From Daphnia pulex (lineage: Eukaryota; Arthropoda; Branchiopoda; Diplostraca; Daphniidae): a DNA stretch of 64,000 bases. Shown here in pieces: positions 22,759 to 46,912 of the stretch (within the stretch, counting starts at the first letter, position 1; each line of letters starts with the position of its first letter). The notes beneath the pieces are model-generated. The model did not search any database. It was given only the letters and a program-made list of their open reading frames with translations, and was not told the DNA's origin. The position numbers and the translations under genes are program-made. The stretch lies in contig NC_060024.1 in the NCBI RefSeq assembly GCF_021134715.1, positions 13,938,974 to 14,002,973 of the forward strand. The letters are read 5' to 3'.

Positions 22759-25739
22759 ATGCGCCATCTCGTTTTGTTGTTCAGCCTCGTTTTATCCGTC
22801 ACCGTGGCAGGTAAATAAATCGATTCCTGTAATGCAAATGACAACATGTTAATCAATTGCCTTATTATTTAGATGATTCGGCTAAAGACAAATCGCAAAA
22901 CAGCAGTTACATAACAGATTCGCCTATTACCTTGGCAGAGACAACTTTGGCCACATCCTTAAACAGCAGCGGATACGACGAGGATTATTACCGCAAAAAC
23001 AGCCGTCCGGCCAATGCTGTAAAGAAAAGCACAACAGTTAAACCCGTTGTCAGACGACCGGCTACTACGACCCGACGTCCATCAAGAACAACTAGGCGTC
23101 CAGCAGAAACTAAAGATCCCGTTCACAGTTGGGATCAAGCCGGTGAAGAAATACGCCATAACATATTTGTCAACATATTAAATTCAATGCAATCATTCAT
23201 GCAGATACTTGCGGGGGCAATATCCTTGTGCCTTTGTCGGACGATCAGAATAATAAAGTCATCGAGGAAACTTATCGGTCGACTAGTTTCCCAATAGCGA
23301 GAACGTATCCATTAATCTGCACTTGGAATGTCAAGGTACGTAGAAAAATCACATTTGCCCTAGAAATTCATGGTGATGATGGGTCGACTCCAGGTGAGCA
23401 AGAATTGCCGTCACGGTCGAATTGTTTTGAGACTTGACGAACGCAGTCGACTGCCCAATGACAAGGAATGCGCCAATGGATACATCCGCGTTTCTCCCTT
23501 TATGAAAGAAGCCAAGTAATACAGTCAAAAGTTAAGTTTAGTTTACCTGAAAATGAAATGATTCATTATGGGATACAACAGAATCTGTGGCCGCATCGGA
23601 GATGTCCCTCCTCTCCAGTGGCACGTCGAGGACCAACAGTCGGAATCTGTGACCATTTCCATGCGGAATATGGGACTTGAAGAAGACAAATCCACCGGTC
23701 TGTCTTTCACCCTCCAAGGTACAGCACTGGCACCCTTTTAAAAATCTTAATTTCCTAATAAAAACAAATTACTTTGATTAAACTTATAGGTGAATGTTTG
23801 GCATACTTATCAAACGTGACTATCAACGACACTGGCATGAATTCCAGCAACAGTCAGTGGCTGCATCAGCTGTGGAAAAACTCGGTAGTCGCTGGAGGAC
23901 CCAGGGTTTTCATTCCAGGTGTGGAACTGGCCAATATTATTCCCTGGATGGAAAATCCTGGAACACTGCCGCCACCTACGACATTGGCAAGCGTCACTTC
24001 AGTAAATAACATTGAAAGTAACCTGAATCAACCCCCTACCCGTCGTCCTCGACCAACTCGACGTCCCAACACCCGACGCCCGTCACTTCCAACAGCTCAT
24101 CCAGTCACTGCCCGTGCAACAACACCTCGACCCATAACTTTTGACCAATACGGTTCGTCTACATTTGAATACAAAAAGGGGTTAATAAATAATCAAATAA
24201 TTGAAAAACAGATACGTGCGGAGGAACAATCCATGTCCCTTTGATATTCGATCGACTCTCATTTCACGAATCGTCGCATTTCTTCACTGGGCGGAATTAT
24301 CCTCTCGTCTGCATCTGGAATGTCAAAGTAAAAAATCAAACTTTTATAACGGCTTTAATAATTTAATCAATTACATTCGCAGGTGAGTCCGCTCTGCCGT
24401 CGTACACGAGTCACAATGAGAGTGGATGTCCGGAGTCGATTGGCCGATGTGGATGGCTGTACAAAGGGATACTACACCGTGTCACCTATAATGAAGGAAG
24501 CAAAGTACTTGATTCTTTTTTAAATTATATTTCCTTTAATTACCATCATTGTTTTGTGTCAAGACTTTGCGGCCGGATCGGAACAGTTCCGCCCTTCCAG
24601 TGGTACGTGGACGACCAAAAGTTGGAAGATGTTTCCATCGTCATGGAAAACATTGGATTAAATGACGGCCGTTCCGAGGGTCTGTCTTTCAGCCTTCAAA
24701 GTAAAATGACATTTAAAGATAATTACTAGATAAATCAATTGAATGTTGTATACCTGATTCTGTTTATCTATGGTGAATTTTAGGCGAATGTATTCAAATC
24801 AGGCCGGATATCAAGAAGATTGACGTCGATATTGAAAATTATTGGTCCACTACTCGATGGGTGAATCGATTGAGGGAAGAATCTGTTAAAGGAGATGGGC
24901 CGAGATTAATCACACCTGGGATCTTTGGTTCCACGACCATCAGCTCGATCCTGTCAAACACTCAAAACTTCAATAAAACGACGTCAAACCATTTTGAAGA
25001 TCAATCAGACATTCCCTGGGTCATCCTGAAGCCGCTGTCCGACACGAAGGTATCTTCTTCGTCAAACGTAGTTCCAAATGTCGTTAGCAATGAGATTGTA
25101 GCTCCAGCAGCGATTCACTCGTCAACAAGTCCTGTGAATAATCTCCCAAAGATTCCCGACGTCACCCCGCACGTTACTTCCCCTATTCCATGGGTCATTC
25201 TAAAATCTCCCGTTAGTGAAAATCATTCCCCATTAAAAGCATCAACGACCCCATCTACTTCAGCTAAGCCGTTGACTACGGTCCGTCCACCCACCACCCA
25301 TCGCTCTTCGACCAGTCCATCGACAAACAAGCCAACATCGACGACTCGACGCCCGTCTAACAAAACTGGTTCAGTTCAGTCAACAACAGCGACTCGTTTG
25401 TCATCGACCACCGTTCGTCCCAGCACTGCAGCCAAGAAACCACCAACTAAATCTGCTGTTCCTTCGTCCACTCGTGTTTCTACAGTCCGTCCTACTTCCC
25501 CCACCGTTCGTCAAGAAACTAAACGACAATCAACTACGACCCGAAAATCAGGCACTAAGGTGCCACCCACGACCAAAAGTCCGGTTCTTAATGTACCCAA
25601 CAGTAATTCAAAGGCGGCCACAAACGGGGTACGGCCCATTGTGATTAACGATGACGGGATTATCGACGAAGCCATTTCTGACATCACGTCGCAATTGGAA
25701 GAAATCAAAAGGGAAGCGGAAATAAACCAGCAGAAATAA
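22759..25739 (+). CDS. Secreted protein with two CUB-like domains and Thr/Pro-rich linkers (CUB 1)
   Basis: Ten exons: 22759-22810, 22873-23142, 23205-23335, 23394-23515, 23582-23718, 23790-24152, 24212-24327, 24383-24504, 24564-24700, 24784-25739; 801 residues. Exon 1 codes only a signal peptide (MRHLVLLFSLVLSVTVA). CUB-like domain 1 spans about residues 108-238 and domain 2 about 359-484. Each has six cysteines in the order TCGG, YPL(I/V)CxW, C, CxxGY, (I/L)CGRIG, EC, spread over four exons of phase 1-0-2-1. The linkers and the long tail are Thr/Pro/Ser/Arg-rich (RRP and TTR runs), likely O-glycosylated. Two IPWVILK motifs lie in the tail (about 25008 and 25186). It is the only gene of the set with a doubled domain, so an internal four-exon duplication is likely. 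The donor at 24153 (GTTCGT) is weak. AATAAA at 25828-25833. Function unknown. Confidence 0.85.
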
Positions 25740-27046
25740 CAGAAACAGCAATGAAACATAATACATGTCTGATAAGCATATGGCTTATTGACAGCAGTAA
25801 TTACTCAGTTATAAATTATCAGGCCTAAATAAATATTATGCTACTATCTATCTCTCATTTTGTGGTTGATAAATAAATCGGTGGGACCATTAACTATAAC
25901 CAAAAACTTTCTAAAACGCTCATTCCATGGGAATAACGTGCACTAGTATAAGGAATAAAATGTAATTGACTTACTGAATAGAGGATAACAAGACTCCATG
26001 AGACGTAATAGTGAAATAAGTAGGCAATGTGCTTGGCAACTCATTCGTGCATGCCCAACAACGACACTGCCCATGCAAAATTGCACCAACTAAAAATAAA
26101 CCAGGCAGAATGTTATTATTCATGTCATGTATAATAATTTATTTAAGTCATCATTACCAAACTTGACAGTTGATTTCGCTGATTAAGAAACTTGACACCA
26201 TGATGGCACGAACGATAAATGGGCATCATTTCCCCTCCCCTAATTCAAAGGCGCGAAAAGATAATTGACGTGGTTTTTCCAGGTGCGGTTTTGCCAGATT
26301 TGTGAGAAATTGTTCTTTCCTTTATATTAAAAACAAAACAAACAAGAAATTTAGATTCGGTTACAATTTCCTTGAGCAAGTAAAATATTTTAAAACTTAC
26401 CCATACAACATTCCCGTGTGAGTCGAGCGAGCGTGAAATAATATCTGCATGGAATGCGTGTCACGGAAATTCACGAAAACATTATCACGAGAGATTTTTC
26501 GGTTGAAGAAATTTCTTATTCTGTGGTTTCGCTCGTTTCATTTGCTTAAAGAGGACAGAATTTATACGATGCAGATGAGCTCAAAAGAGCAAAGAAAAAC
26601 CTCTGGGCAACTTTTTCTTAAATAGTTGAATGCTGGGATATAATAAACACAGTGTTCATTGTGTAGTCTGGTGTAAAATGAGTTTACTATGTTGTTTCTT
26701 GTGAGAGTGCTGGAGAAAACGACTTGTTGTTGCCACTTAATTCCATAACTGCTACAGTTTCAAACTCTCAGTCCAACGTCTGAAGCATTTGAGTAAGCAC
26801 CAACTGTCTGGGCGTCTCATTATTGCCTATCAACCAGAAGAAGAGTTAGGACACCACATAATTGCACGTACACTTTTTCACTGGTTAGGCACGTCGTACT
26901 TGCCACATTAAATGTCGTTCAATTCGCCAAGGATGAGACGATCACCCTGGAAGGTAAATTTTGATTTATTATTTTATCTACTTGAAACAATTGCTGTTAA
27001 AGATTTAGACGTTTAATTTTAAATTTCACCTGTGCAGGTAGTCGAT
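25740..27046. other. Intergenic; 3' UTR of CUB 1 and 5' region of CUB 2
   Basis: The poly(A) signal of CUB 1 lies at 25828-25833. A likely noncoding first exon of CUB 2 ends near 26951 at a GTAAAT donor, and its second exon starts after the AG at 27037-27038, nine bases before the ATG. No other gene seen. Confidence 0.4.
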
Positions 27047-30000
27047 ATGCGCCAACAAGTTTTCGTTGTGTTTTTCATCCATTGCATTCTGGTCATATCG
27101 TTCACTTCGGCAGGTACCTATCACAGAACTAAAACTGATAATTATTTAATTATAAGGGACAATTAAATCTCGTATTCTATTAGGGAAAACACCTTTTTTG
27201 AAAAACAAGTCGATTGAGACGGAAAGTAAATCGTCCATTACCGTATTCGATCCAGAGTACATTGAGATGAATGACAATCTACCACAAACTATTCTGCGAT
27301 TGTCACAAAATCTCATCCATCCAGCAACATCTGATTTTCTTCCGGACACGGATAGCCGCCATTTAGTTGGCCAAACAACCACCAATCCACCCGCTGACAG
27401 TTGGGATCGAAATTCTGCAGGTATAAATAAAACTATTGACTGAGATTATTCCATGTTTTAATAATTCACGAAAATAACGTAATAGATACCTGCGGAGGTA
27501 CCGTCAATGTCCCCTTGTCCTTTGATCGACTCACACCGTTCGAATCGTCACAATTTCCGGAAGAACGCGCTTATCCTTTAGTTTGCCGCTGGATTGTCAA
27601 GGTATTATACAACTCAATAAAGCGTTACGGTAATTGGCGCATTAAACTGAAATCTGAAATGGTAACCAGGTACCGAGTAAGAATTGCAGTCTGGCACGAA
27701 TCACGTTGAGAGTGGACGGTCGTAGTCGATTGCCGGATGTGGTCGGATGCGCTGGAGGATTTTACCGTGTTTATCCATTCATGAAGGAAGCAAAGTATGC
27801 CCAATATTCCGCCTGTACACTCTGAAATTGATCTAATAACAATCCCGTTAAATCTGTACTTGCGAAATGTAGAATTTGCGGGCGCATTGGCGACGTTCCG
27901 CCCTTCCAGTGGTACGTCGACAACCACCAACCAAAAGATGTGACCATTATTATGGATAATACAGGAATCGGTGACGGAAACCCTGAGGGTTTGTCATTTA
28001 CCCTTCAAGGTAATACAACTTTCAAAATTGGGTGAACAATACAAAAGTAAATTTAAAAAAAATCAGGTGAATGTGTGAATGACAAGATGATTGGAGTCAG
28101 AAAGGAAAACGTCAGATTCAGTCGACGCTGGATAAATCGACAAATCGAAGATTTTGAAGCCGGAGAAGGGCCTAGAATAATTATCAAGCCCAGCCATGGT
28201 CTCAAACATCAAATTCCCGTTACAAAAGTACCCAAAACTACTTCAACTAGCACAGCACCAACTAAACAACCAGCTGTTTTTAATGACAATAATCCTGAAA
28301 TCGAACCTTGGCTCATCTCGCAATCCACCGAATCCAGCCATCCATCATATTCGTCGGATTCAGTCACCTATTTCCCTTCGTCAACAGAAAAAACAAATCA
28401 GTGGCCATCATCGACGACCGTTCGCCCACCCACAACTTATTTCAACGACTATCAAGACATTCCATGGGTTATTCTGAAATCTCCTGAGCAAACAGACGAC
28501 CATTATTCATCATCATCGTTTGAAATTTACCCACATAATAACCAAGCCGATAATGTGAAACAAGTCCCAGAAATGACGACTACAAATCCGTGGCTGGCTC
28601 TGAAATCTGCTTACCTTCGTAAAAATTCTACGTTTTCGCCATTAAAGTCAACATCCCCCTACAATCAACATTACTATTCAAATAACCCAAACCGCAATAT
28701 CATAAACAGGGAAATACTTAACACTGAAATCACTTCTCTACTACCTAGGACAACAGCTAAATATATTCCTACAACTGGCAGGCCAATGACGACCGATCTG
28801 CCAACAACCGAACCACCAACTACTCCTGAAGTTACTTCTAACCTCATCAGATATTCGACACAGCCACAAACGACCATTTTGAATCATAATAAGTTAAATT
28901 ATTTTCCTACCTTTCCAGCATCAAACGAAACAATAGTGGCAACGAATACCTTCACCAGTCCAGCACCAACAGAGCCCAGTCGAACTGTCAAAGTTGGATC
29001 ACCTGAGAACGACGCCAATATTTCTACCATCAGCTTGAAGGAAGAGAAATCTAGTTTGACCAAATTACAACAGACATTTAAGCGAACTTACAACAAATTA
29101 ATGAAAATCATGTCCTAAATAACATACTAACACATAATAAGATTTGTTTAGCTTATCGGAATGAGTGTAGCCATCGATCCCCTGAATTGAAACCTATAAA
29201 AATTTGTGGAATAAAGTATGAAAACATAGATGTTATTGCATTTGTTTAATATTTCTTGAGTACTACAGATGAAAAGAATTTTGACAAAACAATATTCTTT
29301 TTTTCTTTTTAAAGCATATAAACATAAAGAAAAAATTGTTCGAACAGGAAACGAAACTTTTAAAAGAAATATTGGATCGCATTTTTGTCCGCCCATCTCA
29401 CTGCGATAACCTCTAATAATCTACAACAGTTATTTTTACCGAATTCCAATGCTTCTCTTGAGCCATGGTTCTCATACGCTCAGGGTTCACATTTCCACAG
29501 TCTCTTAAATAAATGTTGGACAAAGGATTCGCTTCGTTCAGAAAAAAATCGATTCCTTTCTGGCTCACATTAGAACAACCGTACAACTTTAACTTGGTCA
29601 AATACTTGAAACTGTTTCTAGTGCAAGCTTCCTCAAGCATCTGGTCATCAAGAGTGAAACAATTTTCTAAGGAAATCTTTGTAAGAGTAGGGGAAGATAA
29701 AAGCAAAAGTAAGAGTTTGCGTGAAATAGCGAATGGAGAATAATAAGAAGACAGAGAGATGTCTTCCAACATCCTTAACGGAAATACTTCCTTTGGAAAA
29801 CAATGAGAAGAGTGGACGCGGTCATCTACCACAGGTTCAGGAGTATCCTGACCGGTACTTTTTATAACAAGTCGCAAACGGCGAATGTTCGGGCAGCTCT
29901 CGATGATGAGATAGACTTCTTCACTCGTTACTTTCATCGATACATTTAACTCTTCAAGTGTATGGCCACGAGCTTGTAGAAGAGGAATTACTCCGCCACG
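27036..30000 (+). repeat. Segmental duplication A, copy 1
   Basis: From the 5' UTR acceptor of CUB 2 through CUB 2 and into the 3' end of LRR 3, the sequence is nearly identical to 36216-39190 (offset about 9.18 kb). The right-hand boundary is approximate because similarity fades into general paralogy in the LRR gene. Confidence 0.85.
27047..29118 (+). CDS. Secreted CUB-like protein (CUB 2)
   Basis: Six exons: 27047-27113, 27184-27420, 27486-27601, 27670-27794, 27873-28009, 28067-29118; 577 residues. Exon 1 is a signal peptide ending SFTSAG, split by a phase-1 intron as in all members. Residues about 102-228 form one CUB-like domain with the six-cysteine pattern. After it comes the conserved block SRRWINRQIEDFEAGEGPR and a Thr/Pro/Asn-rich tail with IPWVILKSP and NPWLALKSA motifs. 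The tail ends TFKRTYNKLMKIMS, a basic-hydrophobic end shared with CUB 4 and, more loosely, CUB 5. Likely extracellular; no enzyme motif. It converges on LRR 3, whose stop is only 295 bases away. AATAAA at 29210-29215. Its near-identical copy is CUB 4. Confidence 0.87.
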
Positions 30001-31188
30001 AATAGAGACTGACGACTTGAAGGAAAACCCAATTTCGAGATTTTTTAGTTGTTTAAGTTCTCGAAAACCTAAAATAAAATTTCATTCAATTTCCCTACAC
30101 GTGCGAATACCATTACTTCAGATTTTTCTCACCTAATAACTCCTCATTCGTAAATCCTACGTCGTCTACATGTACGAAAAGATCGACGAGTGACGGGCAC
30201 ATGTCAACCATCAATGAAACGCTGCCTTTCTTATAGGGGACTTTGTTTGGCATAGCCATTAACAACTTGGTTAAGGAATATTTTTTTGATTCTCTGTCGT
30301 CATTACGAATTCCACGAAAAATTTGTAGGATATCAGATTTAATGTCGAAATCTAATTCTTTCAGCTCTGGTAAATGTTCGATAGCAAATCGAATTCCGAT
30401 ATGAGTCACTGCCGTTCTCCTAACTGATAATTTGTGAAGGGAACTTTGACCGTTGCAGAAAACTTGCATTGCAGAGTCGGTCACGCCAGGGCACGAATTC
30501 ACTCGCAATTCCCTTGGGAAAAAAATTAAGTGGACATAAAGAAAGTTTATTTACTTCATTAAAGTAGATTCTACCTTAGTTTTGGTTTATCAGTTAATCC
30601 AAGATTGATCATGCAACTAGCACCGTAAATTGTACCAGACAAATCAAGGATCTGCAGGTGTTCGAAAAAATGCAACATGGGAGTAAAAGTATCTTCTACT
30701 TGATTTGATGGCAATTTATTGTATAAACTCATCTTCAGTGTAGTGAGTTGCTGTAATTGCAAAAAGTTGTTCGTTTTTAATTGATTTCTATATAAAAATG
30801 ACGGATTAATTTTTACCGAACATCTAACCGATGCTAAACGCACGATTCGAAGACTGTCAGTGATATGCATATTACTTTTAGATAAATCCAGAATTTTCAA
30901 ATGTGGGTTCAGGAGCAATTCAAACATCTCCTTTGTAATAACCCAGTGGTTTCTTTCGACCCATTCAAGAGTCATGTACTCCAGACAATGTGAAGCTGTG
31001 TGTAGTCAAAATGGCATTATCAAATAAAAGCACACAATTATTGCAAAGAAAAGACACTCACGCAGAAGCTTAAAGAGGCTGGAAACATAATCCGAACTAC
31101 GCAATGCCGTCCATTTCTCCACGTTATCGACGATACTGTCCATACACAATTCTGCCAGAGATTTGTGGTACCATTTGGGCTGAGGCAT
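29413..31188 (-). CDS. Leucine-rich-repeat protein 3
   Basis: Five exons, minus strand: 31062-31188, 30817-30995, 30575-30750, 30133-30512, 29413-30068; 505 residues. It starts MPQPKWYHKSLAELCMDSIV; the core SLAELCMDSI fits the elongin BC-box spacing (S-L-x3-C-x3-I). LRR units follow, including phrases LKILDLS and CSNVSQKGIDFFLN. The last large exon of LRR 1/2 is split here by an extra intron (30069-30132), so LRR 3-5 form a subfamily. Compared with LRR 4 and 5 there is a short deletion in exon 4 (the segment before NKVPYKKGSVSLM). No signal peptide. Convergent with CUB 2. Proposed cullin-2 receptor role is inference only. Confidence 0.85.
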
Positions 31189-31529
31189 GTTGATTGTTGA
31201 AGATAATGGTTAAGAGAACACAGTGAAGGACTTCAGTGAAAACCAAGACGCACACAAAACGAACATCAACGATCACACTAGAGATTTTTCTAAATGTTTC
31301 TCTCCGCCCCTCCTAACAGAGTGACAGTAAGGCGTCCATAAAGGCGCGAACGGAATAATTGCGTTGAAGGAAAGATGCACCATTGCCAGATTTCTTTTAC
31401 AACTCGCGTGAGTCGATAAAATTAGAAAAAAATGAACTAAATTTCCTCACAAAAAAGAAAAAAGTAAATTGCAAATAATGTTCAACAGCAAATAATTAAA
31501 AATAATGAATATCCCTTTCTTCTCATGTC
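31189..31529. other. 5' flank of LRR 3
   Basis: About 31440-31530 resembles 34000-34090, the region between LRR 4 and CUB 3, which suggests that a divergent CUB gene once began here. No intact gene. Confidence 0.4.
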
Positions 31530-31700
31530 CAGTCTCACAGACTAAGACTAGGATCACTCGTACACCAGTTGAAAACGATGCAAATATTTTTTGATCACTT
31601 AGAAAAAGAGAAATTTAGTTTAATATCCAAATTACTTCAACTTAAAATTAAATTAAAGCGAGCTTACAAGTTATTGCAAATCATGTCCTAATTGAATAAA
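31530..31700 (+). pseudogene. Relic of the 3' end of a CUB-family gene
   Basis: The plus strand here aligns by eye with the last about 150 bases of CUB 2 (28985-29118): the GAAAACGATGCAAATATTT block, the GAGAAATTTAGTTT block, and the AATCATGTCCTAA end including the stop position. Reading frame is broken by in-frame stops and small indels. Upstream sequence instead resembles the intergenic region before CUB 3, so the body of the gene appears deleted. It sits convergent to LRR 4, where an intact CUB gene would be expected. Confidence 0.65.
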
Positions 31701-31982
31701 TGTAGTGTAGGATTTTTTAAGTTTATTTAAATTTACACCCAATTGTAAAAAGGTGTGGAATGAAGTTCAATTGTAAAATGAAACAAGACACATATTGAAT
31801 TCCGTGACTATTTAATCTTGACTCGTGTACACCAGATAAAGAATCTTATGAGAATTCCAGGTGAGGATTTTATGAAAGCATACAGTATAAACATAAGGAA
31901 ATAAGTGTTTGCTGTTTGGGCAGGAAAAACGACGAGTTAAAAAAAAAAACATTGGATAGCATTTTCTTACTGCAATCACCTC

Positions 31983-33779
31983 TTAATCTTCAACATTCCA
32001 CTTGACATTCCAGTGCTTCCCTTCTAGCATCATTTTAAAACGATCACAGTTCACATTTCCACAGTATTCTACAGAAATGTCGTCTAAAGGATTCGTTTCG
32101 TTCAGAAAAAAATCGATGCCTTTCTGGCTCACATTAGAACAACCGTAAAGGTTTAACTTGGTCAAATACTTGAAACTGTTTTTAGCGCAAGCTTCCTCAA
32201 TGATCTGGTCATCAAGCGTGAAACTATTATATATGGAAACCGCTGTAAGAGCAGGGGAAGACAAAAGCAATAGCAACAATTTGCGTGAAATAGGGAATGG
32301 AGAATAATAAGAAGACAGAGAGATGTCTTCCAGCATCCTTAACGGAATTACTTCCTTTGGGGAACAATGAGAAGAGTGGCCGCCATCATCTACCACAGGT
32401 TCAGGAGTATCCTGACCGGTACTTTTTATTACAAGTCCCAAATGGCGAATGTTCGGGCAGCTCTCGATGATGAGGTAGACTTCTTCACTCGTTACTTCCA
32501 TCAATAAAGATAACGTTTCAAGTGTAAGGCCACGAACTTGTAGAAGAGGAATTACTCCGCCACGAATAGAGACTGACGACCCCTGATCAATTTCGATATT
32601 TTTTAGTTTTTGAAGCTGTCCAAAACCTGAAATAAAAATGCTTTTTTAATTTCCCATGAATACTATTACTTCAGATTTTTCTCACCTAATAACTCCTCAT
32701 TCGTAAATCCTACGTCGTCTACATGTATGAAAAGATCGACGAGCGACGGACACATGTCAACCATCAATGAAACGCTGCCTTTTTCATAGGGGACTTTGTC
32801 TGGCACATTCCACATGCTATTCAGCATAATCAACTTGGCCAAGGAATATCTTTTTGATTCTCTGTTGTCATTACGAATTCCACGAAAAACATTGAGGATA
32901 TCAAACTTATTTTCGCAATATAACTCTTTCAGCTCTGGCAAGTGTTCGATAGCAAATCTAATTCCGATAAGAGTCACTTCCGTTCTCCTAACTGATAATT
33001 TGTGAAGGGAACTTTGACCGTTACAAAAAACTTCAACTACAGAATCAGTCACACCAGGGCAGTAATCAACTAGCAACTCCCTAGGGGAAAAAAATATAAA
33101 ATGTACAATCAATTTATTTGCTTAAAGTAGAGTAGAACCTACTTTATTTTTGGTTTACAAGTTGATCCAAGTTTGAGCATGCAACATGCACCATAAATTG
33201 TGGAAGATAAATCAAGAATTTGCAAGAACTCAAAACGCTGCAAAATAGAAGCAAAAGCCTCTTCTACTTCAAAATTTCTATTTTCATTGAAAAAAGAACC
33301 CCAGCCATCATGAATCTTCAGTGTAGTGAGTTGCTGTAATTGCAAAGAGTTACACATAAATTTACTACTATTATAATGCAGAATTAACTATTGGTCTATA
33401 TACCAAACATCTGTCAGATGCCAGACGAACGATGCGAAGATTTCTTTCTGCATCACGTCCAGTGCCCAGTTTTGATAAATCCAGAACTTTCACGTGTTGG
33501 CTTAAAAGTAAATCAAACATGTCCTCTGTTATCGAGTAGTTTTCCAAGCGACATTCAGTCATGTACTCCAGACAATGTGAAGCTGTGTGTAGTCAAAATG
33601 GCATAATAAAATAACAGTAGTAATAGATACCAACTTTTTTATAGACACTCACGCAGTAAATAAAAATTACAGGAAACATCCTCCGAGCTACGCAATGCCG
33701 TCCATTTCTCCATGTTATCGGCGATATTTTCCATGCACAATGCCGAAAGAGATTTTCCATACCATTTCGGCTGAGGCAT
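31983..33779 (-). CDS. Leucine-rich-repeat protein 4
   Basis: Five exons, minus strand: 33653-33779, 33404-33582, 33143-33333, 32686-33080, 31983-32626; 511 residues. It starts MPQPKWYGKSLSALCMENI, with SLSALCMENI fitting an elongin BC-box. The donor of exon 3 is shifted by one base relative to the paralogues (GT at 33142), and the acceptor compensates, keeping the frame. LRR phrases as in LRR 3 (IRFAIEHLPELKEL, CSNVSQKGIDFFLN). The 5' half and upstream flank are near-identical to LRR 5. Its convergent CUB partner is only the relic at 31.5-31.7 kb. Confidence 0.85.
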
Positions 33780-36213: not shown

Positions 36214-36223
36214 ATCATTGTAG
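34698..36223 (+). CDS. Secreted CUB-like protein, C-terminally truncated (CUB 3)
   Basis: Seven exons: 34698-34761, 34829-34924, 35011-35085, 35231-35346, 35401-35525, 35604-35746, 35826-36223; 338 residues. Signal peptide exon (SFLLLWLFHLATVLSLSAG), two short linker exons, then a six-cysteine CUB-like domain at about 79-207 and the block NRRWMNRVMEDYLAGEGPR. The tail has a poly-Thr/Pro stretch and one IQWLHLKSP motif. Compared with its copy CUB 5 there is one extra base near 36190 (CATGCC versus CAGCC), which shifts the frame. The sequence then breaks off at about 36213 into foreign DNA that supplies the TAG at 36221. It therefore lacks the last about 140 residues, including the conserved basic C-terminus. 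No poly(A) signal lies between its stop and the next ATG. Whether it still makes a stable protein is unknown. Confidence 0.8.
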
Positions 36224-36231
36224 TCGATATG
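36207..36231 (+). other. Tandem-duplication junction joining CUB 3 to CUB 4
   Basis: Left of about 36213 the sequence follows the CUB 5 last exon; right of about 36221 it follows the CUB 2 5' UTR (TAGTCGATATG). Between them are about ten bases (CCATCAT-containing) that match neither side but echo the adjacent CCATCAG, like filler DNA from end joining. CUB 3's stop codon lies at 36221-36223 and the CUB 4 ATG at 36229. Confidence 0.8.
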
Positions 36232-39190
36232 TGCCAACAAGTTTTCGTTGTGTTTGTCATCCATTGCACTCTGGTCATATCGTTCACTGCGGCAGGTACC
36301 TATCACAGACTAAAACTGATAATTATTTAATTATTAGTGACAATTAAATCTCGTATTCTATTAGGGAAAACACCTTTTTTGAGAAGCAAGTCGATTGAGA
36401 CGGAAAGTCAATCGTCCATAACCGAATTCGATCCGGAGTACATTGAGATGAATGACAATCTACCACAAACTATTCTGCGATTGTCACAAAATCTCATCCA
36501 TCCAGCAACATCTGATTTTCTTCCGGACACGGATAGCCGCCGTTTAGTTGGCCAAACAACCACCAATCCACCCGCTGACAGTTGGGATCGAAATTCTGCA
36601 GGTATGAAATTATTAACTGAGATTATTCCATTTTTTAATAATTCACGAATAAAACGTAATAGATACCTGCGGAGGTACCGTCAATGTCCCCTTGTCCTTT
36701 GATCGACTCACACCGTTCGAATCGTCACAATTTCCGGAAGAACGCGCTTATCCTTTAGTTTGCCGCTGGATTGTCAAGGTATTATACAACTCAATGAAGC
36801 GTTACGGTAATTGGCGCATTAAATTGAAATCTGAAATGGTTACCAGGTACCGAGTTCGAATTGCAGTCTGGCACGAATCACGTTGAGAGTGGACGGTCGC
36901 AGTCGATTGCCGGATGTGGTCGGATGCGCTAGAGGATTTTATCGTGTTTATCCATTCATGAAGGAAGCAAAGTATGCCCAATATTCCGCCTGTACACTCT
37001 GAAATTGATCTAATAACAATCCCGTTAAATCTATACTTGCGAAATGTAGAATTTGCGGGCGCATTGGCGACGTTCCGCCCTTCCAGTGGTACGTCGACAA
37101 CCACCAACCAAAAGATGTGACCATTATTATGGATAATACAGGAATCGGCGACGGAAACCCTGAGGGCTTGTCATTTACCCTTCAAGGTAATACAACTTTC
37201 AAAATTGGGTGAACAATACAAAAGTAAATATTTAAAAAATGCAGGTGAATGTGTGAATGACAAGATGATTGGAGTCAGAAAGGAAAACGTCAGATTCAGT
37301 CGACGATGGATAAATCGACAAATCGAAGATTTTGAAGCCGGAGAAGGGCCTAGAATAATTATCAAGCCCAGCCATGGTCAAAAACATCAAATTCCCGTTA
37401 CTGAAGTACCAAAAACTACTTCAACTAGCACAGCACCAACTAAACAACCAGCTGTTTTTAATGACAACAATCCTGAATACGAACCTTGGCTCATCTCGCA
37501 ATCCACCGAATCCAGCCATCCATCATATACGTCGGATTCAGTCACCTATTTCCCTTTGTCAACAGAAAAAACAAATCAGCGGCCATCATCAACGACCAAT
37601 CGCCCACCCACAACTTATTTCAACGACTATCAAGACATTCCATGGGTTATTCTGAAATCTCCTGAGCAAACAGACGACCATTATTCGGCATCATCGTTCG
37701 AAATTTACCCACATAATAACCAAGCCGATAATGTGAAACAAGTCCCAGAAATGACGACTACAAATCCGTGGCTGGCTCTGAAATCTGCTTACCTTCGTAA
37801 AAATTCTACTTTTTCGCCAATAAAGTCAACATCCCCCTACAATCAACATTACTATTCAAATAACCCAAACCGCAATATCATAAACAGGGAAATACTTAAC
37901 ACTGAAATCACTTCTCTACTACCTAGGACAACAGCTAAATATATTCCGACAACTGGCAGGCCAATGACGACCGATCTGCCAACAACCGATCCACCACCAA
38001 CTACTCCTGAAGTTACTTCTAACCTCATCAGATATTCGACACAGCCACAAACGACCATTTTGAATCATAATAAGTTAAATTATTTTCCTACCTTTCCAGC
38101 ATCAAACGAAACACCAGTAGCAACGAATACCTTCACCAGTCCAGCACCAACAGAGCCCAGTCGACCTGTCAAAGTTGGATCACCTGAGAACGACGCCAAT
38201 ATTTCTAACATCAGCTTGAAGGAAGAGAAATCTAGTTTGACCAAATTACAACAGACATTTAAGCGAACTTACAACAAATTAATGAAAATCATGTCCTAAA
38301 TAATATAGAAAAACAAAATAAGATTTGTTTAGCTTATCGGAATGAGTGTAGCCATCCCCTGAATTGAAACCTATAAAAATTTGTGGAATAAAGTATGAAA
38401 ACATAGATGTTATTGAATTTCTTTAATATTTCTTGATTACCACAGATACAAAGAATTTTGACAAAAACAATATTTTTTTTTCTTTTTAAAGCATATAAAC
38501 ATAAAGAAAAAGTGTTCGATCAGGAAACGAAACTTTTCAAAGAAATATTGGATCGCATTTCTGTCCGCCCATCTCACTGCGATCACCTCAATCTTCATAT
38601 CTTTCATAGTCTTCATAATCTTCAACAGTTATTTTTACCGAATTCCAATGCTTCTCTTGAGCCATGGTTCTCATACGCTCAGGGTTCACATTTCCACAGC
38701 CTTTTAAAGAAATTATGGACAAAGGATTCGCTTCGTTCAGAAAAAAATCGATGCCTTTCTGGCTCACATTAGAACAACCACGCAACCATAACCTGGTCAA
38801 ATACTTGAAACTGTTTTTAGTGCAAGCTTCCTCAATGATCTGGTCATCAAGAGTCAAACAATCGTATATGGAAATGTCTGTAATAGTAAGGGAAGATAAA
38901 AGCAAAAGTAAGAGTTTGCGTGAAATAGCATATGAAAAATAAGTAAACAGAGAGATTTCTTCCAGCATCCTTAACGGAAATACTTCCTTTGGGGAACAAA
39001 GAGAAGAGTGGACGCGGTCATCTACTACAGGTTCAGGAGTTTCCAAATCGGAACTTTCTATTAAAAGTGACAAACAGCGAATGTTCGGGCAGCTCTCGAT
39101 GATTAGAAAGACTTCTTCACTCTTTACTTGAATCGATAAAAATAACATTTCAAGTGTATGGCCACGAGCTTGTAGAAGAGGAATTACTCC
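36216..39190 (+). repeat. Segmental duplication A, copy 2
   Basis: Near-identical to 27036-30000; it contains CUB 4 and the 3' end of LRR 5. The right boundary is approximate. Confidence 0.85.
36229..38299 (+). CDS. Secreted CUB-like protein without own promoter (CUB 4)
   Basis: Six exons: 36229-36295, 36365-36601, 36663-36778, 36847-36971, 37050-37186, 37245-38299; 578 residues. Near-identical to CUB 2 in exons and introns. Signal peptide, one CUB-like domain (about 102-228), block SRRWINRQIEDFEAGEGPR, tail with IPWVILKSP and NPWLALKSA motifs, and the end TFKRTYNKLMKIMS. The duplication cut off the 5' UTR exon and promoter of its parent: its ATG is five bases after the CUB 3 stop. It could be expressed only from a CUB 3-initiated dicistronic message, or may be silent, although its frame is intact. 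Differences from CUB 2 are scattered and keep the frame, including one added Pro codon in the tail. Confidence 0.83.
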
Positions 39191-40414
39191 GCCACGAATA
39201 GAGATTGACGACCACTTACGAATGTCGAGATATTTTAGTTGTTGAAGTTGTCGAAAACCTGAAATAAAATTGCGTTTAATTTCCCTACACATACCATTAC
39301 TTCAGATTTTGCTCACCTAATAACTCCTCATTCGTAAATCCTTCGTCGTCTACATGTATGAAAAGATCGACGAGCGACGGGCACATGTCAACCATCAATG
39401 AAACGCTGCCTTTTTCATAGGGGACTTTGTCTGGCACATTCCACATCCTATTCAGCATAATCAACTTGGCCAAGGAATATTTTTTTGATTCTCTGTTATC
39501 ATTACGAATTCCACGAAAAATTTGTAGGATATCAGACTCAATGTGGCAATCTAATTCTTTCAGCTCTGGTAAATGTTCGATAGCAAATCTAATTCCGATA
39601 AGAGTCACTTCCGTTCCCCTAACTGATAATTTCTGAAGGGAACTTTGACCGTTGCAGAACACTTGCATTACAGAATCGGTCACGTCAGGGCACGAATTAA
39701 CTTGCAATTCCCTTGAAAAAAAAATAAGTTGACATTAAGAAAGTTTATTTATTTCATTAAAGTAGACCCTACCTTAGTTTTGGTTTCCCAGTTAATCCAA
39801 GATTGATCATGCAACTAGCACCATAAATTGTGGAAGATAAATCAAGAATTTGCAAGTGTTCAAAACGCTGCAAAATAGAAGCTAAAGTCTCTTTTACTTC
39901 AAAATTTCTATTTTCATTGAAAAAAGAACCCCAGCCATCATGAATCTTCAGTGTAGTGAGTTGCTGTAATTGCAAAGAGTTACACATAAATTTACTACAA
40001 TAGTAATGCAGAATTAACTATTGGTCTTGTATATACCAAACATCTGTCAGATGCTAGACGAACGATGCGAAGATTTCTTTCTGCATCATGTCCAGTGCCC
40101 AGTTGTGATAAATCCAGAACTTTCACGTGTTGGCTTAAAAGTAAATCAAACATGTCCTCTGTTATCGAGTAGTTTTCCAAGAGACATTCAGTCATGTACT
40201 CCAGACAATGTGAAGCTGTGCGTAGTCAAAATGGCATAATAAAATAACAGTAGTAATAGACACCAACTATTTTATATAGACACTCACGCAGAAGGTAAAA
40301 GAGGATGGAAACGTGCTCCGAACTACGCAATGCCGTCCATTTCTCCATGTTATTGACGATATTTTCCATGCACAATGCCGAAAGAGATTTTCCGTACCAT
40401 TTCGGCTGAGGCAT
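38588..40414 (-). CDS. Leucine-rich-repeat protein 5, mosaic of LRR 3 and LRR 4
   Basis: Five exons, minus strand: 40288-40414, 40037-40215, 39773-39963, 39317-39711, 38588-39258; 520 residues. It starts MPQPKWYGKSLSALCMENI (BC-box-like SLSALCMENI). Exons 1, 2 and most of 3 match LRR 4; the end of exon 3 (CMINLGL) and start of exon 4 match LRR 3; a patch in exon 4 (TEVTLIG, later WNVPDKVPYEKGS) is LRR 4-like; the C-terminus (NPERMRTMAQEKHWNSVKI) is LRR 3-like. It then has an extra acidic ED-Y tail made by a short repeat. This is what unequal recombination plus conversion between duplicated LRR 3 and LRR 4 would leave. The frame is intact. Convergent with CUB 4. Confidence 0.85.
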
Positions 40415-42857
40415 ATTAAAGAAAATAGTTAATAACTAAATCGACTAACTGAAAGACCTCAAAATACAAAATGGCACCCAAAACAGTCAACGAAAAAAGT
40501 TTAGAATTATTATTCTCTGTCGTCCTTTGCCCTCTGGGCTCGAAAAATCAGTTGCATTTTTTTTACGAGATGCACTATTGCCAAATTAAAAAAATTGTCG
40601 AGCGCAATATTAAGAAACGAACCAAAATTCGCTGACAACAAAATGCAAAATGCAAATTGCAAATAATATTCTCAACGAAATAATTGAAAAAAATGAGCAT
40701 ATAATATCCTTTGTTCGCGTCCATTTTCAAAATGTAAATGTTACTACGGGTCTCCCGCGTGTTTTCAGACGCTCCAGTTTTCGCGTAAACAACCAAACGA
40801 ACCGGGAAGAAATTGTCTGTCAATTTATGTGTGGCCACTGAATTCGAGTGTTTAGAAATTCACCAAATGCCTCCTATGTCCATTTCCATTTTTTGGTGGA
40901 GAGAAAGATCCCGTTTAGCCGTTTTAAGGTGAATGGGAATGAATTTAACGAAGCAAAGACGAGAACAAGACAAACCTAGTTTCTATTTGCATCATCAGCA
41001 CGTGTGTTGTGTGCAATCAGCTGTGAATGTTGTAGCTTATTGTCAATATGTAGAGAGTGTGGGGAAAGAGGAAGAATAGGTCCCATTCCATTCGTGAATT
41101 TGTCCAGTGTCCGTTCGACTTTTGTCTCTGAAACATTTCGACAAACTCGTCTCTGACGATAAAAACTATCGATTATCTGTTGGTGATTTTCATTTTAGTG
41201 CGTTGTAATATGTCATGCAACTCCCAATCGCGTCCAGGAATCCCAAATGGAAAGGTGCGAAATCAAATCTCTATCCTTTTATTATTGCCAATTGACATGT
41301 TATATTTCATTTGTTTTCAACTACATTGCAGACAAACAAAATGGTCAAATCGTTTCTCCTCTTGTGGCTATTTCATTTGGCAACTGTCTTGTCCTTATCG
41401 GCAGGTAAACACTTGGCAAATTGCATAGTTTTGATTTTGATTTTGAATTCCTCCTTATATTTGTTGATCAGGTTACTACAGGCAAGATAATGGTCGATTA
41501 CCGTTGATTGGAAATAGCCCGATGACGTCAGTAGGAACGCCGCTAACTGGCAACATACCAGAAGGTATTTATTACACACAAACACACACAGAGGAGAGTC
41601 TGAAAATAATAATAGGACACGGGAACTATAATAATCTACTATTATTACAGCACTCGTCGCCACTTCACTCGGCCCGTTGACCGCCAATAGCCGCCCCGTT
41701 AGGAGGGTCCCTTATGTTTCTGGTAAATAATAATAATCAATTTAGGATACTATCTGATAACAGATGCTTTTTTAACAAGTAGCACATTCAAGTATAGCTC
41801 TTGTTAGTTGGTTTGATCATTAAATTCAATTAGAACTGATGATGAAATTGATTTTGTATTGAAATCAGACACCTGCGGAGGCTCCGTGAATATCCCCCTG
41901 TCGTTTGAACGACTTTTGCCGTACAAATCGACACATTTCCCGTCGAGACGCGATTACCCGATGCTCTGCGTTTGGAATTTCACGGTAAGAATTTAGTTTA
42001 TCGTCACGGTGAGATGATTCCATGGTTTTGTTTTAAAGGTGCAACACGACGGCTGTCGTCGGGCTCGACTGACGATGCGAGTGGACGGACGGAGTCGATT
42101 GCCGGATGTGGACGGATGCAGCAAAGGATATTACACGGTTTCACCCAACATGAGGGGCGCCAGGTATATTTCTATTTAATTTTAGTAGATCACGCAATTA
42201 TGTTATTGATATTAAAGAAACGATTGTTATATAATTACAAGAATTTGCGGACATGTTGGCGATGTTCCGGCCTTCCATTGGTACGTCGACGCCTACCAGC
42301 CGGAAAATGAGGTCACAGTTGTCACGATGAAGAATTTGGGCATCAATGACGGATTCTCTGAAGGACTTTCATTTACCCTCCAAGGTATATTAGGACCATA
42401 TAATTTTTAAAAAGATTTGAATTAACATAACTGCCAATAATGAATTGAATTTGATATAATTAATAAAGGCGAATGTGCAGAGGAAGAATGGTCGTATGCC
42501 CGAACGACGACTGTCAACAAGGAGAACGCCAGATTGAATCGGCGCTGGATGAATCGAGTCATGGAAGACTACCTGGCCGGAGAAGGACCCAGAGTGACCG
42601 TCAACCGTGTCAAATTGCCAGTAACGAGCACTACTACTCCAGCCCCAACAACCACCACCACCACCACCAGCCGACCCAAACTGGATCATCCAGTTGTCTC
42701 ATCCGATAACAATTACTCCGGTGGCATCCAGTGGCTTCATTTGAAATCGCCCTCCGATCTTCATTCACCCAAAATTCACCAGAAATCAGCGATTGCCAAA
42801 TTCCAGCCACCTCAAGTCGTGAACGAAACGATTCAGCCAATCGTTTCCATCAGCACA
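39765..42857 (+). repeat. Segmental duplication B, copy 2
   Basis: Near-identical to 33130-36213, covering the 5' part of LRR 5, the intergenic region and most of CUB 5. The copies differ by scattered substitutions and a few small indels. Confidence 0.88.
40415..41340. other. Divergent intergenic region, LRR 5 / CUB 5
   Basis: Copy of 33780-34697 with the promoters of both genes and the noncoding first exon of CUB 5; the acceptor AG lies at 41330-41331. Nothing else seen. Confidence 0.45.
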
Positions 42858-43298
42858 ATTTCCAGCGAATTTGAATATCCCGCCACCAGCACCACCAGCG
42901 TCCCATCAGAGTCGACAATTGAACCAGAAGAAGAGATGAGCAGCACCTGGCCAACAACCGACCAATCCACTGACCCGTTTTACCTGACGACGACCTCCAC
43001 ACCTTTGGTAATGGCCAGCACGACGGATAATGACGAGCTAATCTCAACCACTTCATCAACTGATGACCCGTTGCTGACGTCCAGCACGACGGAGATAACA
43101 ACCACTTTAACAGCAGAGTCCAGCAGCACCACCCCCTTGTCTGATGTTGTTGTTGCGTCAACAACAACAACCCAACAACCGCCCATCAGCATTTCCCATG
43201 TCGTCACCCCCATCAGCGGTCAGAACTTGGCATTCAACAGGTTTCAAACATTCCAGAGACGTTTTCTGAAATTCCTGAAAATCTTTTATTTATTTTAA
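41341..43298 (+). CDS. Secreted CUB-like protein, full-length sister of CUB 3 (CUB 5)
   Basis: Seven exons: 41341-41404, 41472-41564, 41651-41722, 41869-41984, 42039-42163, 42242-42384, 42469-43298; 480 residues. Signal peptide, two short linkers, CUB-like domain at about 77-205 with the six-cysteine pattern, block NRRWMNRVMEDYLAGEGPR, one IQWLHLKSP motif. A long Ser/Thr-rich acidic tail (about 310-450) follows that should be heavily O-glycosylated if secreted. It ends TFQRRFLKFLKIFYLF, comparable to the CUB 2/4 end (T-F-x-R-x-[YF]-x-K-x-x-K-I). One Ser codon shorter than CUB 3 in exon 2 and lacks the CUB 3 frameshift. AATAAA at 43361-43366. This shows what CUB 3 looked like before truncation. 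Confidence 0.87.
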
Positions 43299-45077
43299 TT
43301 ATTTCTTGTTATTGCATTTGTTATATCTAAATTCAAATTTGTATATCGTCGCTGCGGCAAAATAAACGGGACTTTGTATTATCAATCCGAGTCATCCAGC
43401 ACCAGCACAGGTGTGAAAATCATATCTGATTAGAAATGGTAATGCCATTCGTTTTCTCTTTAAATTGGTTATCTCTCGCCAGACGAATGAATCGGCTTTC
43501 GTGTCTTTTTATCTCACGTCATATTTTATAACCGGTTGTATCCACCTAGTATAATTGGGAAAAGAAAAAAAAAGGAATTTAATCAAATGAATATAGTAAT
43601 TTCCTAATTGAGTATTAATAAGAGTTGCATTCATTTTCAAAAGGGTTTCTTTTTTTTTCTTTCAATTTCTACGAATTTAAAAATCTCACGTCCCAGTTTA
43701 TATTCAAATGAAAATCCCCAATTATATTGTGTGGGCCTCGATGACGTGTTTGTTTCATAAATTCAATGATGGAAAAAGATAAAAATTGAAACAATCGGTG
43801 TCTCATTCCGAGTGTGTTTCCCCTTTGTGGACTTGACCAATAGGTCCCATTGTTTCCGGCTGTGCTGTGCCCAATGTAGGTCAAACGCATCGTCATAACT
43901 ACATGTTTAAACCGAGGACGATGCGCCGGGTGATACTCTTATTCTTCTTATCATTATGTGATTATTACGTATATGGAAAGAAGTTGTATTCTCTGGGCAA
44001 GACTTTCTCTGCGAGCCGTGCCAATTTCACCGCTAATATAAGTGGGGTCCTAACTTTTTCCAGCCTAAACGAAACGAAAGACACATCCGTTAAATGGTGC
44101 TGGTAATAGAAGTAGGCCAGCACACATACACCGTATCCGCACCACTACAACTCTCAAATATAGGAGAAAAGACCATGTCTTTTAAGTGATTTTCACCTGT
44201 CTAACGTCAAGCGGTTCGCTTTCCTGTCTCGAATAGTAACACATAAAAAAAGTAAAATGAATTTTCTCTGCTGTATAAGTAGTATATGCTCTTCATTAAA
44301 AACTCGTCAAAATTTAAAAAGGGAGAAAATGATTAAAGAAACGTCGGACCATTCGGCATTTTGAAATTGAGCTAAAAATGTGTGAGCACACTGTCCTATA
44401 TCTACTACTGCTTTTGTGTGTTTATCTTAAATTGCGATTATAAAATCAAATGAAATAAAAGGGACCCTGGATGGAGGAGGAAAAAAGCCTGAGGGTCTCA
44501 AATCAAAATCCAGGGAAAAGGCTCTTTTCTTTCTCCCATGGCAGCAGCAGCACCTGCCATTTTCTCTTTTTCTTTCTTTCTTTTTCTCTACACAGAGAAA
44601 TAATACAGGTGGATAGTGTGTGTGGAAGGGAGGGGGGGAAACCTAGTTTTCCTTGGGATATCTCCAACTCACAGGAGAAGAGATAGAAAAGTATTGTTCT
44701 CTCGGTGAACGAAGAGAGAATAAGAAAAAAAGACAAGGAAAATAAGAAAGGCCAACGCTCAGTCCCGTCTCGGCTCAGTCTCTGTCCAGCCTCTGACGCT
44801 CAAACAGCTCCGTCGTAGCTGTTCACAATTATAAAGTTCGCCCCATTTGAATTTATTTTTATTTGTTGCTGCTCTATACCGTGTATACTGGTGAGTTTCA
44901 ATTCTTTTTTTGACCTTTCTTATTGTACTATATTAGCCTGTTATTGGGGTGGCGTGTTTTGATGACCTAATTAATTCTTTTTTTCGTATTTGGTTTCTGT
45001 GCATTGAATTGAATTTGTTGACCCGGTGACATCCTCAACTTTTGCGTTTTTCCCACGACGACGATGACACAGTCGAC
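43299..45077. other. Intergenic between CUB 5 and CUB 6
   Basis: Poly(A) signal of CUB 5 at 43361-43366, then A/T-rich DNA and purine-rich low-complexity stretches. A probable noncoding first exon of CUB 6 ends at the GTGAGT donor at 44891, with its second exon starting after the AG at 45071-45072. The open frame 43920-44106 begins with a signal-like sequence but has no partner exon; see rejected items. Confidence 0.4.
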
Positions 45078-46912
45078 ATGCGATTCTTGATTTTGATTCT
45101 GTCGGCTTTAATTGCCTTCGCTTCGGCAGGTATAGAGTCAAACATTTTTTCAAAAATACTTAATTAAAAGCTAGTTTAAATAATTAAACCTTTTTTTGAA
45201 AAATTAAGGGACCGTGTCGGAGCGACTGAAAATGACGATGGACAAATACCAGAAAATCGAAGTGAATTTACCAGAGAGTCGGCCCATCACGTCGAGAGGT
45301 AGAAATCAAATTCCGGCCAGATTATTTATTAACTGACTTATTTGTCGCGCTGGATTTGTTTGACGGATTTGTTTTTTTGATTTTTACAGGAATTATGCAA
45401 AACATTCAGAATGCTATCGGGAATCGGCACGTGACTTTTAAAATACCTGCCGTGCCGTTCGTGTCGAACCTTTGGCGAACCAAAAACGCCACGCTCGTTT
45501 CATCTTCCGCCAAGAATTCATCGTCCACTCCAGCAGCAACGGCGGATGAGCAGATCGGGGTCAGCGGCGGCGTCCAGTCGACGGCCGGACCCATCCAACC
45601 CGGCGGACATCAACCAGGTAAAAAAACCAAAAAATATCTGTCCCCTCCCTATCAACTGAAACCCACAAAAATCGAAAGGTAAAATTGAGGTCAACCCATT
45701 CTGTCGAGTTTCTCTTTTTTTCTGCGCTTCTTTTTTATTATAAGCGGGTGACGAATTTGCATATACGAAGCGTGAAAAATAAAAATAAAAATAACCGCAA
45801 CTGTTTTGACTGTGGAGCAAAAGGAGAAGAGAGGAGCTCAGTAGGTCAACAGTTGCGGTTATCTTTTTCTATTTTATTTGATTGAATCAAAAAGTCACAA
45901 AAATCGAATCGACTCTAATAATCGTGAAATGTAATTAGGAGATTGGTGCGGAGGCAACATCTTATTGGATCTCAATTCACGGCGAGAGTTAACCTACAAG
46001 TCGACGCTATTCCCGGCCGCACGCTCAGTCCCGTACGCCTGCTCCTGGGACGTCAAGGTATTTCCCGTTTCTATATCGCCATTTTGATATGCCATTTCAA
46101 TTGGGGTTGATGTGACCATTTGGGCCGCCATCTATATATATGGTATGATAACAGGTGAGCAAGAATTGCCGTCGAGGTCGGGTGACGATGCGAATGGACG
46201 GACGCAGTCGACTGGCCACCGAGGATCGATGCAGCAAAGGATATTACCGAGTCTCGCCATTCATGAAGGAAGCCAAGTAACTAATAATACGCCACCCGTT
46301 GTTATTATTACGTCATTACATCCACTTTTGTTTCCCCCCTTATGAATAGAATCTGCGGACACATTGGGACCGTTCCGCCCTTCCAGTGGTACGTGGACGA
46401 GAACCAGCCGGAAGAGGTGACCATCATCATGAAAAACATTGGACTCAACGATGGCCGTGACGAAGGATTGTCTTTTACTCTATCAAGTGATTGCCCAATT
46501 ACTTACTCGTTTAAATGAACTGTTTGAAGAAATGTTTGACAATTCATATTTCCAATTAGGCGAATGTCTGACGACGTCCAAGGAGAGCAGCAGCAGTGAG
46601 AGTAAAATCAATAGCAGCAACGTGGCGATGGATAACATGGAAACCAACAGCCGCTGGATGTACCGTCTGCTGATGGACTCGGCCACTCCCGGCAGCCGCC
46701 AGAGTCAAGTGATCCTCCACACGGCCTCCATGTCCTTCCAGCCCAACTCCAAACTGTCGGCAAAGGCCTCAGAGAAGATCAGCCAGGATTTCGGTCAGGC
46801 TACGGCATCCGATCCAACCGACGACGAGTCCAGCACAACGGTCAAACCGGCCAACAAAATCACATTCTATTCGCCACTCTATTTGATTTTCCGCAAATTG
46901 AACCTCATTTAA
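45078..46912 (+). CDS. Secreted CUB-like protein (CUB 6)
   Basis: Seven exons: 45078-45129, 45209-45298, 45390-45617, 45939-46057, 46155-46276, 46350-46486, 46560-46912; 366 residues. Exon 1 is a signal peptide (MRFLILILSALIAFASA). Two linker exons follow, then a CUB-like domain (about 124-250) with WCGGN, YACSWDVK, SKNCRRGR, CSKGYYRVSPFMKEAK, ICGHIG and EC. The post-domain block is NSRWMYRLLMDSATPGSR, more diverged than in CUB 2-5. The tail is short, lacks the PW..LKS motif and Thr repeats, and ends in a hydrophobic-basic LYLIFRKLNLI. It is closest to CUB 1 in the KNCRxGR and MKEAK segments, and stands outside the recent duplication. Function unknown. Confidence 0.85.

Follow-up and report, generated by a model that had tools for sequence, protein, structure and literature searches.

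Clusters of recognition genes such as those of the nucleotide-binding leucine-rich-repeat (NLR) receptors of plants hold tandem and dispersed copies, chimeras and blocks exchanged between copies. The stretch of the Daphnia pulex genome analysed here (64,000 bases of contig NC_060024.1, called C8 below, C8:13938974-14002973; this is the window, and positions without a contig name are counted from its first base) carries an array in which six CUB-like genes are interleaved with five leucine-rich-repeat (LRR) genes. Compared by description only, it shares tandem and dispersed copies, chimeras and block exchange with the birth-and-death clusters of plant NLR, sea urchin Sp185/333 and fungal hnwd genes, and differs from them in that a second, unrelated and probably secreted family rides in the duplicated segments. 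It is likely, in our judgement, that the LRR genes are kept and shuffled and that the CUB-like genes are passengers away from the home array, the pair being copied by hitchhiking rather than through functional partnership. Literature searches on Daphnia CUB-domain and LRR gene families found no description of a CUB-LRR array.

At the protein level, the nearest described counterparts of the LRR family are the VHL-box receptors of cullin-2 (CUL2), namely LRR-1, ZYG-11/ZER-1 and FEM-1, with which it shares a BC-box motif, then a Cul2-box-like string in most members read, then a repeat domain; the Daphnia family differs in being large, recombining and multicopy, and the resemblance is one of motifs. 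Section 5 of PMC4878042 gives the consensus of the BC box as (S,T,P)LXXX(C,S,A)XXXphi and that of the Cul2 box as phiPXXphiXXXphi. In D. magna, according to PMC4551569, a gene with two CUB domains and a gene with LRR motifs were among eight differentially expressed 4 h after Pasteuria exposure.

Local duplication and dispersal of the array

Eleven gene models (Table 1) were built by hand from exon homology and from GT-AG and phase consistency, as sequence-based predictions; all have GT-AG introns throughout and none has an internal stop. The six CUB-like genes, with seven CUB-like domains between them and one gene truncated at its 3' end, all lie on the plus strand and the five LRR genes all on the minus strand, just as the first-pass annotation had read them. 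The range that it gave for the array, 22759-46912, does hold the CUB-like genes and LRR_A to LRR_C, but LRR_D and LRR_E both lie to the left of it. The convergent pairs that it had listed (CUB_K2/LRR_A, CUB_K4/LRR_C and a CUB relic/LRR_B) were all recovered, the relic through its match to K2, and to these can be added two divergent neighbour pairs that it lacked, LRR_B/K3 and LRR_C/K5. The shared orientation is not independent evidence, since much of it is explained by a block duplication.

That duplication is evident in self blastn, where 27038-31191 matches 36220-40417 at 89.8% and 31981-36208 matches 38613-42853 at 93.1%, the duplicated block being 9.2 kb in size. The second block is shorter because its two LRR genes are fused (LRR_A' x LRR_B'). 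At the sites where LRR_A and LRR_B differ, LRR_C is mostly B-like from about 39831 to 40740 and more often A-like from 38531 to about 39830, the middle of the A-like part being mixed and both ends of the partition taking in flanking DNA; on this pattern, block 2 lost the DNA separating two LRR genes through a crossover near the exon 3 border that fused them. The CUB relic between LRR_A and LRR_B suggests that the convergent pair had already been a duplicated unit before the block itself was duplicated. The junction between the blocks, at 36208/36220, truncates the 3' end of K3, and the same junction is found at C8:12.6537-12.6539 Mb; since the 12.65-Mb copy contains it, the junction is older than that copy. 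Between the divergent LRR_B and K3, the region 33981-34697 is only 0-1% different between the blocks, below the CUB introns, for which a shared promoter or a recent exchange is a possible explanation.

Searches of the genome (133,188,837 bases in 13 contigs) with LRR_A, CUB and LRR_D scored the best candidates only, and all copy counts are lower bounds. These searches, and alignment of the loci to the window, place pieces of the array at at least ten other places (Table 1), holding 13 A-type LRR copies; with the three in the window they make up the A-type set of 16 whose coding sequence was used in the LRR tests, a more diverged place on C3 and the fragments at C8:8.864, C8:8.894 and C10:12.326 lying outside it. 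CUB sequence or a vestige of it adjoins 15 of the 16, as CUB coding sequence in 11 and as a short tail or relic only in four (the two C9 copies, C8:12.178 and C4:3.548), and the LRR copy on C1 has none beside it. At other loci the same two genes turn up side by side again, with homology at the DNA level that extends across both and across their intergenic DNA, which is more pairing than chance would give. The proposal that the pair is the unit of duplication is thereby borne out, locally by the self-match blocks and the relic, and in the dispersed segmental copies by their homology at the DNA level. Each family also occurs without the other. None of 54 wider-family LRR places, hand-picked from the LRR_D search, lies within 20 kb of a CUB-like place (the set omits four close D-type places, two of them beside the C8:8.87 CUB copy, and the weaker LRR_D matches), and an array of 11 CUB units at C8:14.124-14.163 Mb has no LRR gene among the scored matches.

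A mobile element as the vehicle of dispersal is a conceivable but unsupported idea: the ends of the copied segments vary by locus, and among 18 flanks compared (112 to 1403 bases) long shared sequence was seen only between the two C10 copies, which are mutual duplicates. Shorter features do occur there, with 79-101 bases upstream of the LRR gene common to the 8.868, 12.646 and C9 copies, repeats inside the C10 and C4 flanks, and a palindrome at C9. At C9:7017492-7017766, a perfect 79-bp inverted repeat that is probably a small inverted-repeat element adjoins the C9 LRR pair. The C4:6.23 array copy ends beside a relative of the terminal-inverted-repeat element found in the window at 10986-16451, and an LRR_D-type copy at C1:449075-454660 is split by about 3.8 kb that include relatives of the 57837-60608 element.

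Unequal histories within copied segments

Within the co-copied segments the CUB genes, CUB introns and intergenic DNA are mostly 1-7% diverged and most LRR stretches 10-33%, divergence falling back to low values beyond the LRR gene where both sides were copied. Neutral sites carry the same contrast. With C10 set apart, synonymous divergence (dS) is 0.034-0.090 for CUB and 0.127-0.253 for LRR genes, and their introns differ by 0.028-0.080 and 0.115-0.310 respectively; the C10 copy, older along its whole length, has a weaker contrast (CUB dS 0.148, LRR dS 0.247). When window positions 37914-42853 are compared with C8:12.654-12.659, for example, K5 has a dS of 0.074 with introns at 0.064 and intergenic DNA at 0.055, and LRR_C a dS of 0.217 with introns at 0.202. 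Neutral divergence of the LRR gene being several times that of the CUB gene in the same segment, the two genes of a pair do not have one shared history. Positive selection on amino acids alone is rejected as the cause of the LRR divergence, dS and the LRR introns being raised too.

The LRR family is a mosaic, its 5' and 3' parts having different histories. Over 1,356 gap-free columns of the 16 A-type copies, the pairwise homoplasy index (PHI) is 0.482 against 0.621 in shuffles (z -18.9, none of 300 as low); identical runs longer than any in 200 shuffles occur in 26 of 120 pairs, a count to which conserved regions may add; and trees of exons 1-3 and of exons 4-5 reject each other (log-likelihood differences of 548 and 204, approximately unbiased test p near 0). 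Exons 2-3 cut into three groups at least 24.8% apart from one another, two of them tight (within 11%) and the largest wide (up to 24% within). LRR_A groups there with C8:12.656 and both C9 copies, and the C8:8.868 copy, which sits in the LRR_A position beside a K2 tail, falls in the large group. Such deep groups, together with an island of divergence that coincides with the LRR gene body and flanks that return to 1-8% where both sides were copied, are what long-lived balanced alleles of one locus, sampled by separate duplications, might leave behind in place of inter-locus exchange; yet the groups do not track locus and the 5' and 3' parts disagree, so exchange is needed even with balanced alleles, and we find this explanation doubtful, if worth some weight.

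A different account would make the duplications old and the CUB tracts, not the LRR genes, the odd part, recently overwritten by gene conversion. In its favour, the 8.87-Mb copy is mostly 10-46% diverged to the left of about 22.2 kb, coding and noncoding sequence alike. Low divergence, however, is found on either side of LRR genes, in the exons and introns of CUB genes and in intergenic DNA, broken CUB copies included, and the block junction is common to the 12.65-Mb copy; overwriting as the main cause is unlikely.

Hitchhiking is also indicated by what stays intact after copying. All 13 dispersed LRR copies start with ATG CCT CAA/G, stay open for at least 477 codons and have the window's exon borders in exon projection, and 11 of them are clean. 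Open frames of this kind are unexpected without constraint, because LRR_A simulated with 0.10 neutral substitutions per site was stop-free in 0.4% of 2000 runs. The larger dispersed CUB copies, in contrast, are broken or partial in seven cases and open in one (one-sided Fisher p 0.002 for 11/13 against 1/8, on copies that are not fully independent). These eight exclude a weak C6 match and the short tails and vestiges at C8:12.643, C8:12.658, C8:12.178, C4:3.548 and C9, along with the K4 tail at C4:6.234. The K1 copy at C8:8.871-8.876 Mb is 96% identical and has no ATG; its exon 3 is shifted by one base, and two of its splice sites are non-canonical as aligned. On C4, the K5 copy is likewise without an ATG, has also lost a donor and shifts frame in exon 7. 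In the K4 copy at C8:12.65, exon 6 is frame-shifted and intron 1 contains a 2.75-kb repeat; the K2 copy at C8:8.87 is without CUB exons; and the two C10 copies and a C11 mosaic are without their 5' part. The insertion in the K4 copy (C8:12650976-12653728) has inverted repeats of 123, 78 and 30 bp and is presumably DIRS-like.

The first-pass annotation had gone on to suggest that the pair is perhaps a functional unit, for instance an extracellular factor with an intracellular partner. In favour of such a unit, with selection holding the two genes together, are the recurrence of the adjacency at several loci, the open frames of every LRR and CUB gene in the home array (five and six) and the apparent constraint on the K3-type copy at C8:12.654. 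We rate it very improbable: seven of the eight larger CUB copies decay beside mostly intact LRR genes, the two parts of one segment differ in neutral divergence, and the 54 LRR places and 11 CUB units noted above stand each without the other family. Recurrent linkage of two unrelated gene families can come from hitchhiking, and a within-genome test that joins decay to the contrast in neutral age tells a duplicated pair from a functional one.

Several observations weigh against so simple a history. The LRR gene at C8:12.646 has AA for its last AG acceptor, and that at C9:7.013 stops 28 codons early. Beside an intact LRR gene, the K3-type CUB copy at C8:12.654 has clean exons and no shift relative to K5 up to the old truncation, with low nonsynonymous divergence (dN) relative to dS in the same comparison (dN/dS = 0.008/0.074). 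LRR divergence is uneven, as a mosaic would be, with some stretches at 4-8% (parts of LRR_C against C8:12.646 at 6-8%, the 5' half of LRR_B against LRR_C at 4-7%). Finally, the left end of the 8.87-Mb copy is diverged, so that the history may include recently overwritten CUB tracts besides LRR exchange.

The likely course of this hitchhiking would have started from a secreted CUB-like gene and an intracellular LRR gene that happened to lie side by side in convergent orientation; local and segmental duplication then turned the pair into an array. Away from that array, selection would keep the LRR genes, each with a putative N-terminal VHL-type box (a BC-box motif, often a Cul2-box motif) and a solenoid diversified through substitutions and through recombination among copies, a gene fusion and the swapping of exons 2-3 being examples. 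The CUB-like genes would serve as a secreted family in their own right in the home array and in the neighbouring CUB-only one, and elsewhere would be passengers, mostly decaying and probably without functional coupling to the LRR genes.

The LRR and CUB-like proteins

Residues 9-19 of the LRR proteins read (S/T)LxxL(C/S)xxx(I/V), or nearly so (one has SLAGLC), in all 16 A-type copies and in LRR_D and LRR_E, and the BC-box string was found by eye in four of four further loci, two of close D/E type and two of the wider family. The resemblance to the BC box of VHL-box receptors is at the level of the motif. With Cys counted as hydrophobic, every one of the 16 A-type copies has a Cul2-box string starting at residue 42; LRR_E has such a string too. 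Over all A-type pairs, dN/dS is 0.26 for residues 1-27, 0.33 for exon 1 and 0.66-0.82 for exons 2-5 taken as wholes, and in 20-residue windows it goes from 0.26 (residues 121-140) to 2.0 (residues 181-200).

The repeats themselves are identified in LRR_D by Pfam LRR_6 (6.9e-8, 32.4 bits, over the cut-off of 23.4) and by the FBXL17-like fold of a model of its exon 4, FBXL17 being first in the fold search (E 1.2e-6); LRR_A matches LRR_4 (9.1e-6) and LRR_6 (6.7e-4), both just under cut-off. The best match of LRR_D among sequences of solved structures is FBXL2 (E 1.2e-13). The family thus shares an LRR solenoid with the F-box/LRR (FBXL) proteins, and differs from them in that no F-box model matched LRR_A or LRR_D in Pfam at E up to 1. 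The same search gave no match named ZYG-11/ZER-1, only LRR models and others at chance level, the ZYG-11 content of the library not having been checked.

These features suggest that the LRR proteins are probably cullin-2 ubiquitin-ligase substrate receptors diversified by recombination; service as such receptors, with a recognition surface that changes, would be their most likely job. Some caution comes from the same data. The Cul2 motif is counted with Cys as hydrophobic and is absent in LRR_D, and chance strings are common, most of the LRR proteins having two BC-type and three Cul2-type strings in all. Constraint is not unique to the box, dN/dS being equally low at residues 121-140 and 0.35 at residues 161-180, and the overall LRR median of 0.70 is no proof of positive selection. 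The LRR_D exon-4 model is weak (mean predicted local distance difference test score, pLDDT, 64.9, from a two-sequence alignment). A bolder proposal, to which we give little credence, sees in this array the home of a recognition-receptor system of Daphnia: ectopic recombination would shuffle LRR cassettes that carry a VHL-type box, CUB-bearing segmental duplications would spread them, and the resulting diversity, of the NLR or major histocompatibility complex (MHC) type, would act via targeted protein degradation. In any case the array points to LRR genes that recombine and bear a predicted ubiquitin-ligase box in an ecological model animal, and this family is a candidate for host-parasite or self-recognition variation.

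The CUB-like proteins are predicted to be secreted, all six models having hydrophobic N-termini by eye, and consist of a domain with conserved cysteines and Thr/Pro-rich tails. On C8 the family has two arrays, the home array and the 11 units described above. In an alignment of 12 members (omitting K4 and K5, near copies of K2 and K3, as well as one array unit and other units of the family), a CGG..YP..C.W pattern and five cysteines are invariant; the array unit at C8:14148745, outside this alignment, is without two of the five. Pattern and cysteines may correspond to those of CUB domain (PF00431) proteins, and there are weak profile matches in four of the 12 members (best E 4.9e-4). The family differs in lying below the Pfam cut-off (13.9 bits for K1 against a gathering score of 21.4), and the genome's 137 listed PF00431 matches all lie outside it. 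CUB profiles run against solved structures yielded no hit below E 0.59. Within the array, dN is low relative to dS between K3 and K5 (0.005/0.057) and higher between K2 and K4 (0.021/0.043).

The two domains of K1 are joined across an intron of 59 bases by a phase-1 donor at 24153; the stretch separating them showed no hydrophobic first exon. K3 and K4 are 6 bp apart (34698-38299) and have phase-1 introns; skipping the last exon of K3 and the first of K4 would give a predicted two-CUB protein like K1. The K3-K4 junction is also kept at C8:12653729-12655400.

Gene models and other elements of the window

Table 1. Features of the window, by position in it, and dispersed copies of the array, by contig position
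Feature	Position	Strand	Description
CUB_K1	22759-25739	+	10 exons, 801 aa; hydrophobic N-terminal exon 1; two CUB-like domains (exons 3-5, 7-9); Thr/Pro-rich tails
CUB_K2	27047-29118	+	6 exons, 577 aa; one CUB-like domain; Thr/Pro-rich tail; tandem partner K4
CUB_K3	34698-36223	+	7 exons, 338 aa; 3'-truncated at block junction
CUB_K4	36229-38299	+	6 exons, 578 aa; ATG 6 bp past K3 stop codon
CUB_K5	41341-43298	+	7 exons, 480 aa; full-length relative of K3
CUB_K6	45078-46912	+	7 exons, 366 aa
CUB last-exon relic	31570-31691	+	70% identity to K2 29004-29118, E 2.7e-10; convergent with LRR_B
LRR_D	17141-18902	-	4 exons, 519 aa; relative of A-C type; BC-box motif TLLELSIAHV
LRR_E	19485-21282	-	4 exons, 526 aa; region 78% identical to LRR_D region
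LRR_A	29413-31188	-	5 exons, 505 aa; N-terminal BC-box and Cul2-box motifs, LRRs; convergent with K2
LRR_B	31983-33779	-	5 exons, 511 aa
LRR_C	38588-40414	-	520 aa, chimera; convergent with K4
Block 1 of tandem duplication	27038-36208		K2, LRR_A, relic, LRR_B, K3; self blastn
Block 2	36220-42853		K4, fused LRR_C, K5; self blastn and site partition
Dispersed copies, C8	8.868-8.881, 12.177-12.180, 12.643-12.659 Mb		DNA-level alignment to window
Dispersed copies, C4	3.548-3.550, 6.228-6.234 Mb		DNA-level alignment to window
Dispersed copies, C9, C11, C1	C9:7.013-7.017, C11:0.287-0.293, C1:5.340-5.343 Mb		DNA-level alignment to window
Dispersed copies, C10	12.292-12.296, 12.321-12.324 Mb		DNA-level alignment to window
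Flanking-gene open frame	2625-4034	+	TRPM2-like channel domain
Flanking-gene open frame	51057-51608	+	BAR domain
Flanking-gene open frame	63180-63929	+	glycosyl hydrolase 38

No Rfam match at gathering score was found in the window, and no tRNA by ARAGORN. The element at 57837-60608 has 752-bp inverted ends that are 99.9% alike and 43 matches in the genome, several of them at 99-100%; by these features it is a young multi-copy inverted-repeat element. A larger element lies to the left of LRR_D, at 10986-16451, with inverted ends of 680-720 bp at 85% and an outer 170 bp at 75%, and one of its ends has at least 41 matches in the genome. The long single-exon open frame at 60608-62263, on the minus strand, contains ankyrin repeats (Ank_2 1.1e-11) and in this resembles, we presume, FEM-1, another type of CUL2 receptor.

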